From Opitutia bacterium (lineage in GTDB: Bacteria; Verrucomicrobiota; Verrucomicrobiia; Opitutales; Opitutaceae): DNA of 64,000 bases. The translations under genes were made by a program, and so were the position numbers. Below the pieces are notes generated by a model, which was given only the letters and a program-made list of their open reading frames with translations, was not told the origin of the DNA and did no database searches. Positions within the stretch are counted from its first letter, which is position 1. Each line of letters starts with the position of its first letter. The DNA lies in NCBI GenBank assembly GCA_016190985.1, contig JACPPI010000001.1, forward strand, positions 62,001-126,000, read 5' to 3'. This document shows, piece by piece, positions 6,180 to 59,436 of the stretch.

Positions 6180-6232
6180 TGTAGGAGCGGCTTTAGGCCG
6201 CGATTTGTATTCTGTGATTGTTGCTCCTGCAT
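6180..6232. repeat. Palindromic repeat, family A (TGTAGGAGCGGC type)
   Basis: Inverted ends TGTAGGAG and CTCCTGCA enclose an inner hairpin GCGGC-TTTAG-GCCGC. It lies between two minus-strand genes of the sigma cluster. The same family occurs at 8614-8666 and 45365-45435. Confidence 0.75.
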
Positions 6233-7992: not shown

Positions 7993-9219
7993 TCAGGCCG
8001 GTTCCGCGCCGGGCAGAATGAGGTCGGCCTCGATGGGCAGGTCGACGTGAACCAGGCTGCGGTTGAGTGCGCCGGCCTCGGGTGGATTTTGGCAGAAGCG
8101 GCAGGCCTCGCCGAGGGCGACGTGGCTTTGGGCGTTTTCGTCGAGCAAAGGATGATAAAACAGCCGGCCCGTGCGCCCAAGTGATGTCCTTTCAGGCACG
8201 ACTGCCACCTCGCCGAGCCGCGCCGCTCCCTCGTCGGTGTCCAGCAGCCGGGCCAGCAAATCGGCCCCGGTGCGGGCTGAGGCGGACACCACCCGGCCGC
8301 GGCGAAAACCAAGCTCAATGCCGTCGATGACGGAGCCGCCGTAGTTCACAGGCCGGGAGACACGCACTGTGCCTTCGGTTGAGTTGCGATGCGGCGCCGT
8401 GAAAATCTCCTCGGTGGGCAGGTTGGCCACGAACGGCACGCCGGACTTGGCGGTCATTTGCGCCGTGCACCAGACATGACCCGCCGGCAAGACCACCGAG
8501 AGATCGGTGCCCGGGCCTTGGTAGCGGAGCGGGCGGTGCTTCTGCGCATTCAGCACGGCACAGCGCCGCTGGAGCGCCGCGAGGTGCGACTGCCAGGCGG
8601 CGATGGGGTCATTGGTAGGAGCGGGTTTATCCCGCGATGGGTCGGGGCCTAAAGCCCCTCCTGTCACCGGAATTCGCATCGCCTCGAACACTGATTTCCA
8701 CAGCGCCGCGAGCCGCTGCTCCGAGGGCAGGCCGGTGTAGACGGCCTGGGCCCAAGCGGGTGCCGGGGCCGGTGCGACGGTCCAGTTGGTCGCGCCCTGC
8801 ATCAGTTGCTGGGCGACCGGCCCAAAATGCGCCCAACCGATCCGCCGCAGCTCGGCGACATCGTGCGCCGCCAGGCCGGCCAGCAGTTGCGGCTGGCTGC
8901 CCTGGAGAAAGAGCAGGGCGTCGTGATTGTCGATGGAGTGCTGCATCCGGCGGGCGTTGGCGCCCACGAGTTGGGCATAGCCGCGCCAGTCTTTATTCGC
9001 GGCATATGCCCGGAGCCGCGCGCCGTCGCCCCAGATGACCTCGACCTCGCACGCCGCCGCCCGGCGCACGGCGTCGACAATCACCTCGGCACTGCGGGCC
9101 ACGCCCTGCAACTCGTAGGGCTCGGCGATGAGCAGGCGCTGGCCCGGCTGCAAGTTGAGGCCCACGCGCACGACCACCTCGGCGAAGGCGCGCAGACGGG
9201 GCTCGAAGTCAGTTATCAT
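7993..9219 (-). CDS. M29 family aminopeptidase with in-frame repeat insertion
   Basis: A 408-residue metallo-aminopeptidase of the AmpS/thermophilic M29 type. Family landmarks are the N-terminal LQPGQRLLIAEPYELQGVAR, the metal-ligand regions NLPTEEIFTAPHRNSTEGTV and FYHPLLDENAQSHVALGEA, and the closing NRSLVHVDLPIEADLILPG. Residues about 185-202 (PVTGGALGPDPSRDKPAPTN region) are not family sequence: the DNA there (8614-8666) is a palindromic repeat of family A inserted in frame. The surrounding sequence joins naturally if it is removed (AMRI ... DPIAAWQSHLAAL). It is probably still functional, because the frame is kept and the site lies in a linker. A second M29 gene is at 16832-17950. Confidence 0.9.
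   Translation of the reverse strand: MITDFEPRLRAFAEVVVRVGLNLQPGQRLLIAEPYELQGVARSAEVIVDAVRRAAACEVEVIWGDGARLRAYAANKDWRGYAQLVGANARRMQHSIDNHDALLFLQGSQPQLLAGLAAHDVAELRRIGWAHFGPVAQQLMQGATNWTVAPAPAPAWAQAVYTGLPSEQRLAALWKSVFEAMRIPVTGGALGPDPSRDKPAPTNDPIAAWQSHLAALQRRCAVLNAQKHRPLRYQGPGTDLSVVLPAGHVWCTAQMTAKSGVPFVANLPTEEIFTAPHRNSTEGTVRVSRPVNYGGSVIDGIELGFRRGRVVSASARTGADLLARLLDTDEGAARLGEVAVVPERTSLGRTGRLFYHPLLDENAQSHVALGEACRFCQNPPEAGALNRSLVHVDLPIEADLILPGAEPA
8614..8666. repeat. Palindromic repeat inside a coding sequence, family A
   Basis: GGTAGGAGCGGG-TTTAT-CCCGC followed by GGGGC-CTAA-AGCCCC and closing CTCCTGTC. It has the same design as the intergenic copies at 6180-6232 and 45365-45435. It lies wholly within the M29 aminopeptidase gene and adds roughly 18 residues without breaking the frame. 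Confidence 0.85.
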
Positions 9220-9229
9220 GTCCTTCTCT

Positions 9230-9309
9230 TGTCATTCTGAGCGCAGCGAAGAATCCATGTCTTGGTGGCAAGTGCAAGAGGCTGGGTTCTTCGTTGCGCT
9301 CAGAATGAC
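9230..9309. repeat. Palindromic repeat, family B (GTCATTCTGAGCGCAGCGAA)
   Basis: The left arm GTCATTCTGAGCGCAGCGAA is mirrored by an arm ending GCGCTCAGAATGAC. A near-identical element is at 26454-26550 and a degenerate one at 11130-11216. It lies between the M29 aminopeptidase and the P-loop kinase-like gene. Confidence 0.85.
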
Positions 9310-11129: not shown

Positions 11130-11216
11130 CTGTCCTTCTGAACGAAGCGAAGAATCCCGCGGGCTATGCGCCTGCGGCCGTGCCACTGGATCCTTCGCTA
11201 CGCGCAGGATGACAGG
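11130..11216. repeat. Degenerate family B palindromic repeat
   Basis: CTGTCCTTCTGAACGAAGCG opposite an arm ending GCGCAGGATGACAG. It lies in the 327-base gap between the aldolase and topoisomerase genes (11002-11328). The rest of that gap holds only further GC-rich inverted tracts and no open frame I would call a gene. Confidence 0.6.
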
Positions 11217-26413: not shown

Positions 26414-26453
26414 ATCTACGGAGTGTTTTCAACCCCAGAAAATCCGCAAAGCC

Positions 26454-26550
26454 TGTCATTCTGAGCGCAGCGAAGAATCCAGATGGATACTCGATTCCGT
26501 CAGGGGGCAGCGTAAATCCTCATGGATTCTTCACTGCGCTCAGAATGACA
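26454..26550. repeat. Palindromic repeat, family B
   Basis: Perfect 17-base arms TGTCATTCTGAGCGCAG and CTGCGCTCAGAATGACA, each followed inward by CGAAGAATCC-like sequence. Same family as 9230-9309. The gap 26342-26571 holds only repeats. Confidence 0.9.
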
Positions 26551-26571
26551 AGCCGGGTTTGAATACACGCC

Positions 26572-26901: not shown

Positions 26902-26937
26902 GAGGGGAAGAAAAGGTGAATTGGAATTGTCCGGCAA

Positions 26938-27029
26938 GGTGGAACCCGGCCTCCGGACGGGTTTGTTGGATGGACATCCTGAAAGCCAGACGAGCACGCG
27001 GAAAACGCGTCCACAGGCCGCGTTCCACC
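26938..27029. repeat. Palindromic repeat, family D (GGTGGAACCCGGCCTCCGGA)
   Basis: Opens GGTGGAACCCGGCCTCCGGA and closes with GGCCGCGTTCCACC. Sister copy at 59357-59427 with the same left and right ends but different middle. Confidence 0.75.
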
Positions 27030-44622: not shown

Positions 44623-44686
44623 GTGGCGTGCTCACACGCCACGCGCCGCAGGCGCACCAGCGTTGCGCGCGAGCCCGCAACCTGCA
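44619..44686. repeat. Palindromic repeat, family J
   Basis: Starts GTAGGTGGCGTGCTCACACG, followed by GGCGCACCAGCGTTGCGCGC and ending GCCCGCAACCTGCA. Same family as 2759-2806. Its first bases provide the uvrA stop codon. Confidence 0.75.
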
Positions 44687-44768
44687 GCGAGAGGGGCGAA
44701 TCCCCTGCAACTTTGGCAGGGTCTGCGGTGTGCTGGGGTATCGGCAACGATCCTCAATCCCATCCCCC

Positions 44769-45364: not shown

Positions 45365-45435
45365 GGTGGGAGCGGCTTTACGCCGCGACATAGGATGACC
45401 GCAGCGAAAAGTCGGGGCATAAAGCCCCTCCCACC
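45365..45435. repeat. Palindromic repeat, family A
   Basis: Ends GGTGGGAG and CTCCCACC, with inner GCGGC-TTTAC-GCCGC and GGGGC-ATAAA-GCCCC hairpins. It matches the copy inserted in the M29 aminopeptidase gene, including the GTCGGGGC and AAAGCCCCTCC segments. Confidence 0.85.
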
Positions 45436-56028: not shown

Positions 56029-56109
56029 CCCGCGTCCCTGCGGGTCCAGGCTTGCGCCGCAGGTTGCGCGCTCGCGCGCAACGTGGCGGGCAAACACGCC
56101 ACCCGCAGA
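56029..56109. repeat. Palindromic repeat, family J
   Basis: TTGCGCCGCAGGTTGCGCGC-TCGC-GCGCAACGTGGC followed by AACACGCCACCCGCAG. Same modules as 2759-2806 and 44619-44686 in another order. Confidence 0.7.
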
Positions 56110-56115
56110 TCCGCC

Positions 56116-59356: not shown

Positions 59357-59427
59357 GGGTGGAACCCGGCCTCTGGACGGGTTGCTGGGATACAGCCGGA
59401 AGCGCGTCCGGAGGCCGCGCTCCACCC
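59357..59427. repeat. Palindromic repeat, family D
   Basis: GGGTGGAACCCGGCCTCTGG at the left, GAGGCCGCGCTCCACCC at the right. Sister of 26938-27029. Lies between the terminator and ruvA. Confidence 0.8.
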
Positions 59428-59436
59428 TGAGCCATT

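Follow-up and report, generated by a model that had tools for sequence, protein, structure and literature searches.

A REP dimer in an Opitutaceae M29 aminopeptidase gene, probably acquired by in-frame insertion, and the reading frame of its intragenic relatives

Introduction

REPINs consist of two REP units in opposite orientation that behave as one mobile unit, with a RAYT transposase present in the lineage, and they have been described mainly between genes. The Rickettsia palindromic elements of Ogata and colleagues are short palindromes that reportedly occupy tolerated positions in proteins and decay there over time.

REPs of the GTAG superfamily have been described inside the genes of several species, with the highest count in a verrucomicrobium, Opitutus terrae, which is also known to carry a GTGG variant of the tag (Di Nocera et al. 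2013, PMC3733652). According to that study, more than half of the intragenic copies are dimers or groups that add 20-30 amino acids, some genes are hit twice, and flexible linkers or loops are suggested to tolerate the insertions. The recB REPs of X. campestris and X. oryzae lie at about the same site, whereas genes of the same category are otherwise hit at different sites (PMC3733652). The same source notes that the Rickettsia palindromes are kept in frame in functional genes, places RPE-4 and RPE-6 in the CGTC superfamily, a group lacking a dedicated transposase, and describes the E. coli RAYT as recognizing single-stranded REP DNA and cutting at GTAG (PMC3733652).

Here we analyse a repeat, family A, in a 64,000-nucleotide stretch of Opitutaceae DNA (the window), in the genome from which the window was taken (G000; 2.95 Mb, 34 contigs, 99.47% complete) and in other genomes of the genus. 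In-frame REP insertion is already a published phenomenon (PMC3733652), and the M29 aminopeptidase gene described below adds a case of a known kind.

Results

A head-to-head REP dimer lies in an intact M29 gene

The original prediction placed an in-frame family A element in an M29 aminopeptidase gene, and we found it at 8615-8664, with an open frame running through the whole of 7993-9219. The element is an exact head-to-head REP dimer of 50 nt, composed of two 24-nt units with GTRG tags and a 2-nt spacer (Table 1). Its minus-strand reading is in frame and encodes residues 185-202 of the 408-amino-acid ORF. Both stems (GCGGG/CCCGC and GGGGC/GCCCC) and the head-to-head order are retained, and both stems form in the predicted RNA fold of the insert. 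An unusual mRNA hairpin was considered as a reason for retention and rejected, as the fold is unexceptional (z -1.42, with 18 of 200 shuffles as good).

Table 1 Family A features of the window and the gene that carries the insert
Feature	Position	Strand	Description
M29 aminopeptidase gene	7993..9219	-	408 aa, carries the insert; identified by Pfam match and conserved residues
REP unit 1	8615..8638	+	GTAGGAGCGGGTTTATCCCGCGAT; GTAG tag, GCGGG/CCCGC stem
REP unit 2	8641..8664	-	ACAGGAGGGGCTTTAGGCCCCGAC on the minus strand; head to head with unit 1; degenerate tag
Codons of the REP-encoded peptide	8614..8667	-	VTGGALGPDPSRDKPAPT, residues 185-202; loop between predicted helices 166-180 and 205-226
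Family A unit	6181..6204	+	directly upstream of a probable start codon; partner half degraded to about 6229
Family A head-to-head dimer	45366..45434	.	outside genes by codon score

The ORF matches Peptidase_M29 over residues 6-397 (Pfam, 334 bits against a cut-off of 27), and a profile built from the M29 alignment matches the solved structures of AmpT, AmpS and PepS. Five residues that are invariant in an alignment of 31 sequences, E271, E337, H366, H391 and D393, are kept in the window protein, and we take them to be the metal ligands. A pseudogene or non-coding ORF is unlikely given the profile match, the conserved residues and the codon usage. An AlphaFold2 model of the protein has a mean pLDDT of 92.5, with lower values of 70 and 53 in the ten-residue blocks 181-190 and 191-200; the REP-encoded segment is, in this model, a low-confidence loop between the two helices given in Table 1.

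The same loop is short in most orthologues and carries different elements in others

We compared the loop between a conserved Arg and a conserved Ala-Trp (site 1) among M29 orthologues. The window protein has 26 residues here. Of 80 named relatives, 76 have 9, and the remaining four have 10, 20, 23 and 26 (the last being L100). The 9-residue form is also present in L039-L043, the five closest orthologues, which share about 70% identity with the window protein. Orthologues lacking the insert are thus common, and the comparison bears out the original prediction that the frame is kept and that family sequence resumes on both sides. These alignments support an in-frame insertion that would have added about 17 amino acids to the predicted loop. 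Neither a target-site duplication nor an exact empty site could be defined among the available orthologues, the nearest being only about 71% identical.

Intact repeats were also found in other orthologues. In L100, an Opitutaceae MAG, site 1 holds a 50-nt dimer of the window type, L047 has a 56-nt dimer of a different type at site 1 together with half an element at a second loop, and L051 has a full dimer at this second loop. Several orthologues without an intact repeat have a site 1 loop of 18-24 residues. By eye, decayed-looking copies are present in L101 at site 1 and in L100 at site 2, and site 1 of L053 holds an apparent remnant of another palindrome family. From these sequences, one M29 loop appears to have been struck by different elements, which is possibly a new detail.

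In a tree of M29 proteins, the window protein groups with L100 and L103, both named Opitutaceae, in a clade of 20 rows with support 100/100. The character 'intact repeat at either loop' requires at least three changes over well-supported branches, with 9 of 21 inner branches drawn open and gain indistinguishable from loss. The intact repeats are not clustered on the tree, as all 500 label shuffles required just as few changes. The M29 protein of L101 (CAMCYT010000170.1), on a contig labelled as a Prosthecobacter debontii MAG, forms a pair with L051, a member of the window's genus (support 88/88); either a misbinned contig or a transfer would account for this placement.

Family A is a dispersed repeat of the GTAG type

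Allowing up to three mismatches, the family A unit pattern matches the window at 6181-6203 (+), 8615-8637 (+), 45366-45388 (+) and 45412-45434 (-), and it has no match in 100 dinucleotide shuffles of the window. At the same threshold, 50 units were found genome-wide, compared with none for the pattern read backwards. Chance resemblance to a repeat family is ruled out by these two controls. Further copies had been predicted between genes at 6180-6232 and 45365-45435, and both were recovered there (Table 1). From the reading of the ORFs, the gene downstream of the first looks like an anti-sigma factor and lies beside an ECF-like sigma factor.

Of the family A clusters in three genomes, 99 are head-to-head dimers, 55 are single units and 4 have other arrangements. 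Dimer lengths recur (for example 50, 59 and 68-71 nt), which fits two REPs moving as one unit, and 50-nt dimers with the stem pairing of the M29 element occur elsewhere in G000 and in a second genome, G013. Units start with GTAG or GTGG, the tag of the second M29 unit being degenerate. Family A therefore combines the traits of the GTAG superfamily, namely an unpaired GTAG-type tag, a short stem with a short loop, dispersal, and dimers that are mostly head to head.

The original prediction also held that a palindrome of a different family interrupts a second gene within the 64 kb. This was not confirmed: we examined 12 other palindromes of the window for coding-type codon usage to either side, and none is clearly internal to a gene. 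The best of the 12, at 56056-56115, has two opposite frames (scores 0.30/0.03 and 0.22/0.03), both near an ORF start. It belongs to a repeated family of GTTGCGCGCGAGCGCGCAACCT palindromes, with further copies at 2749-2808 and 44661-44689, one copy of the family lying near the start of a 503-amino-acid ORF. Inverted repeats of the form CATTCTGAGCG...GAATCC occur at 9231-9309, 26451-26553 and 11131-11213, with no spanning coding frame by codon score. At 26935-26964 and 59400-59429 we observed halves of a palindrome, GTGGAACC...CGTCCGGAGGCCGCG, of a family (family B) that is also present in FtsY of two other genomes (G018 and G019).

RAYT genes are bracketed by family A units in sister genomes

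Of 14 RAYT loci scanned, 5 are bracketed immediately, head to head, by family A units and 9 are not. The five are in four sister genomes of the same genus (G012:C42, G010:C98, two in G011:C14, and G005:C202). The G012 protein passes the equivalog cut-off of the NCBIfam model REP_Tyr_transpos (86.8 against 80 bits) and matches the solved TnpA-REP structure 4er8 (E 3.7e-7). In the window's own genome, none of seven Y1_Tnp matches lies between family A units, as compared with the listed units, so the cognate enzyme may have been lost, missed or be acting in trans. This genome does contain a RAYT gene (G000:C30:79307-80016; L078, L313) that carries on both flanks a sister repeat, GTGGGAGCGAGCTTGCTCGCGAC, whose tag is of the same type.

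Intragenic copies of family A are read in one frame

We scored a cluster as intragenic when codon usage on both flanks indicated coding and a frame was open through the element, using our own codon score and not annotation. In five genomes of the genus, 30 of 243 family A clusters were scored intragenic (6 of 34 in G000, 4 of 48 in G013, 11 of 76 in G012, 1 of 43 in G005 and 8 of 42 in G004). The sample comprised the listed family A places of G000 and G013, 75 of 142 counted units in G012 (joined into 60 stretches), and fifty loci each in G005 and G004, of 117 and 83 units and with several loci over one cluster; three G005 clusters at contig ends were left out. Dropping four copies at ORF starts leaves 26 internal copies, in line with the earlier suggestion that coding insertion is a general phenomenon. 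One copy (L460) that starts at residue 61 of a stop-to-stop ORF, with its start as predicted only, was kept among the 26. Of the dropped copies, L097 lies upstream of a folE2 domain and its likely start, and follows the usual frame. The other three (L420, L423 and L455) are at the very start of their ORFs, and none follows the usual frame throughout: L420 and L455 have the left half in that frame and the right half in another, L423 has a different left frame, and the dimer lengths of all three are not 2 mod 3.

All 26 internal copies use one frame, which reads VGGALxPD for the forward unit and SGxKAPPT for the reverse unit; with nothing dropped, 27 of 30 intragenic clusters are in this frame. 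The chance of a single frame in all 26, given their open frames, is about 10^-7 (log10 -7.25), a value that becomes weaker if three likely inherited pairs (L202/L467, L082/L456 and L228/L439) are each counted once and to which 6 of the 26 contribute no weight, having only the usual frame open in the reading direction. The window element is among these six; with one open frame per direction, it is by itself uninformative on frame choice. The single frame was predicted before G004 and G005 were classified; the six internal copies in these genomes follow it, and the three dropped G004 copies do not. Length agrees with frame: 17 of 17 internal dimers are 2 mod 3 long, compared with 57 of 133 among those that the score puts outside genes (Fisher p = 2e-6). 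The dropped dimers were left out of both groups.

The peptide read in the used frame is Gly- and Pro-rich and free of aromatic residues, and the other frames of a typical unit read WEGLYAP, GRGFTPR or RGxKPLP. A T precedes the unit at 194 of 253 unit ends, so either the site is non-random or the T is part of the element. As a control we classified the sister repeat, which has 104 units in G000, in a sample made up of the window, earlier stretches of G000 and 30 new loci. Of 32 clusters, nine were classed as intragenic; with L348, which lies near an ORF start, set aside, forward-unit frames 0, 1 and 2 all occur inside genes. The classification method therefore does not force one frame, although the control is imperfect because stop codons are scarce in the sister repeat (99 of 108 frames are open in its dimers outside genes). 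The single-frame use of intragenic family A copies is possibly a new detail.

An FtsY linker holds repeats of different families

FtsY is essential in most bacteria. A single full-length match was found in each of 20 genomes out of 21 searched; the match in G014 is only a distant paralogue. The linker between the N and G domains is short in 11 of the 20 aligned orthologues of the genus. It holds family A dimers in G013 and G004, family B units in G018 and G019 (by a pattern that had no shuffled control) and, in G012, a stretch resembling decayed family B. A third hairpin, family C, occurs in G005 and G010 and is tentative because the FtsY copies themselves served as the model for its pattern, which matched only one further unit; the linkers of G007 and G016 are also long. 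Across species of the genus (L468-L487, L202 and L467), at least two, and probably three, palindrome families are seen in this one linker. Judged from sequence, a single FtsY linker would thus have been struck by different repeat families, again possibly a new detail. By eye, two stem pairs differ between the two copies of family A, with both sides changed and pairing kept; replacement by another copy would explain this as well as constraint would.

Pfam was run on 8 of the 26 carrier ORFs and gave matches for 7. Among the further carriers are two TIR-TPR proteins, an MmeI-like methyltransferase and a flavodoxin/FAD reductase. The orthologues L082 and L456 share a single unit that is identical at 24 of 24 positions between two species, with flanks that differ (by eye); the G000 copy of this pair had no Pfam match.

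Discussion

We propose that a RAYT-linked REP dimer was inserted into this Opitutaceae M29 gene and that the family is selfish, its genic copies being filtered by selection to loops and to one frame; we give this reading a probability of about 0.87. The 50-nt element would be a REPIN-like dimer of the GTAG superfamily, non-autonomous and mobilized by a RAYT (TnpA-REP) tyrosine transposase, as we infer for the M29 copy. A dimer copied into a gene would survive only if the frame is kept, no stop is introduced and the extra residues (17 in M29) are tolerated. Selection would remove most genic insertions, leaving survivors in loops and linkers in the frame VGGALxPD...SGxKAPPT. The REP peptide probably stays in the M29 protein as a flexible loop, and the element is likely to be about neutral rather than useful to the enzyme. 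As the used frame is Gly/Pro-rich and lacks aromatic residues, selection on the peptide would account most simply for the single frame.

The age of the insertion is a separate question. It could be ancestral to the Opitutaceae M29 lineage and lost in L039-L043 and others, as the same dimer type at the same site in L100 and the probable decayed copy in L101 would suggest. We regard this as unlikely though still worth considering: the exact 9-residue loop in five close orthologues would require precise losses, L047 has a different dimer type at site 1, and 50-nt dimers with the same stem pairing elsewhere in G000 and G013 mean that the L100 copy could be independent. That the loop is merely an ordinary variable linker resembling a repeat, with no mobile insertion, is scarcely credible. 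Loops of 18-24 residues do occur in orthologues that lack an intact repeat, but those of L101 and L053 look by eye like decayed repeats, the window element retains both stems and the head-to-head arrangement, and the 50 dispersed units have no counterpart in the reversed pattern or in the 100 window shuffles.

Two further alternatives bear on why such copies persist and why they share a frame. Recruitment of the loop or hairpin for a function, for example in translation regulation or protein interaction, would fit the L082/L456 unit, which is identical amid differing flanks, and the paired stem changes in FtsY (both by eye). We consider it very unlikely, because the M29 RNA fold is not unusually stable, the element sits in unrelated proteins whose orthologues commonly lack it, and replacement by another copy also explains the kept pairing. 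An insertion-site preference of the transposase, rather than selection on the peptide, could also produce a single frame, and the T that precedes most unit ends is what such a preference might leave; but the used frame puts this T at the third codon position, where it should be rare in genomes of 64-66% GC, the sister repeat, which shares the tag, has genic copies in three frames, though with fewer stops to avoid, and different repeat families struck the same FtsY linker. This explanation therefore seems improbable to us.

A more speculative idea, which we rate as rather doubtful, is that the family has itself become adapted to being translated. A head-to-head dimer whose length is 2 mod 3 can give a similar Gly/Pro-rich peptide from either strand, and family A might represent protein-compatible transposons that can spread through the flexible linkers of conserved genes, with coding copies feeding back on the family sequence. 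If so, linkers hit by unrelated REP families, such as those of FtsY and M29, would be standing reservoirs for mobile hairpins. More generally, the addition of peptides to functional proteins by tiny transposons is an easily overlooked route to protein change. The genus offers a useful comparison set, with different elements in the same loop, numerous orthologues that lack an insert and a sister repeat that serves as control, and it makes the choice between selection on the peptide and transposase bias testable.

Relation to known systems

Compared with REPINs, which have mainly been described as intergenic, family A has 26 of 243 classified clusters inside genes. It shares with the Rickettsia elements the retention of short palindromes in frame in genes, and differs from RPE-4 and RPE-6 in having a GTRG rather than a CGTC tag and in having RAYT genes bracketed by the repeat within the genus. 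Our literature searches found no published single-frame monopoly of translated REPs, and the passages of PMC3733652 consulted here do not mention one, although the peptide list in its Additional file 3 may hold frames. With the GTAG superfamily, as that study describes it, family A has in common the GTAG/GTGG tag, the short stem-loop, the predominance of head-to-head dimers, RAYT REPtrons (in the sister genomes), intragenic copies and genes hit twice (PMC3733652). Unlike the cases other than recB described there, the M29 and FtsY loops have been struck repeatedly, and by different elements.
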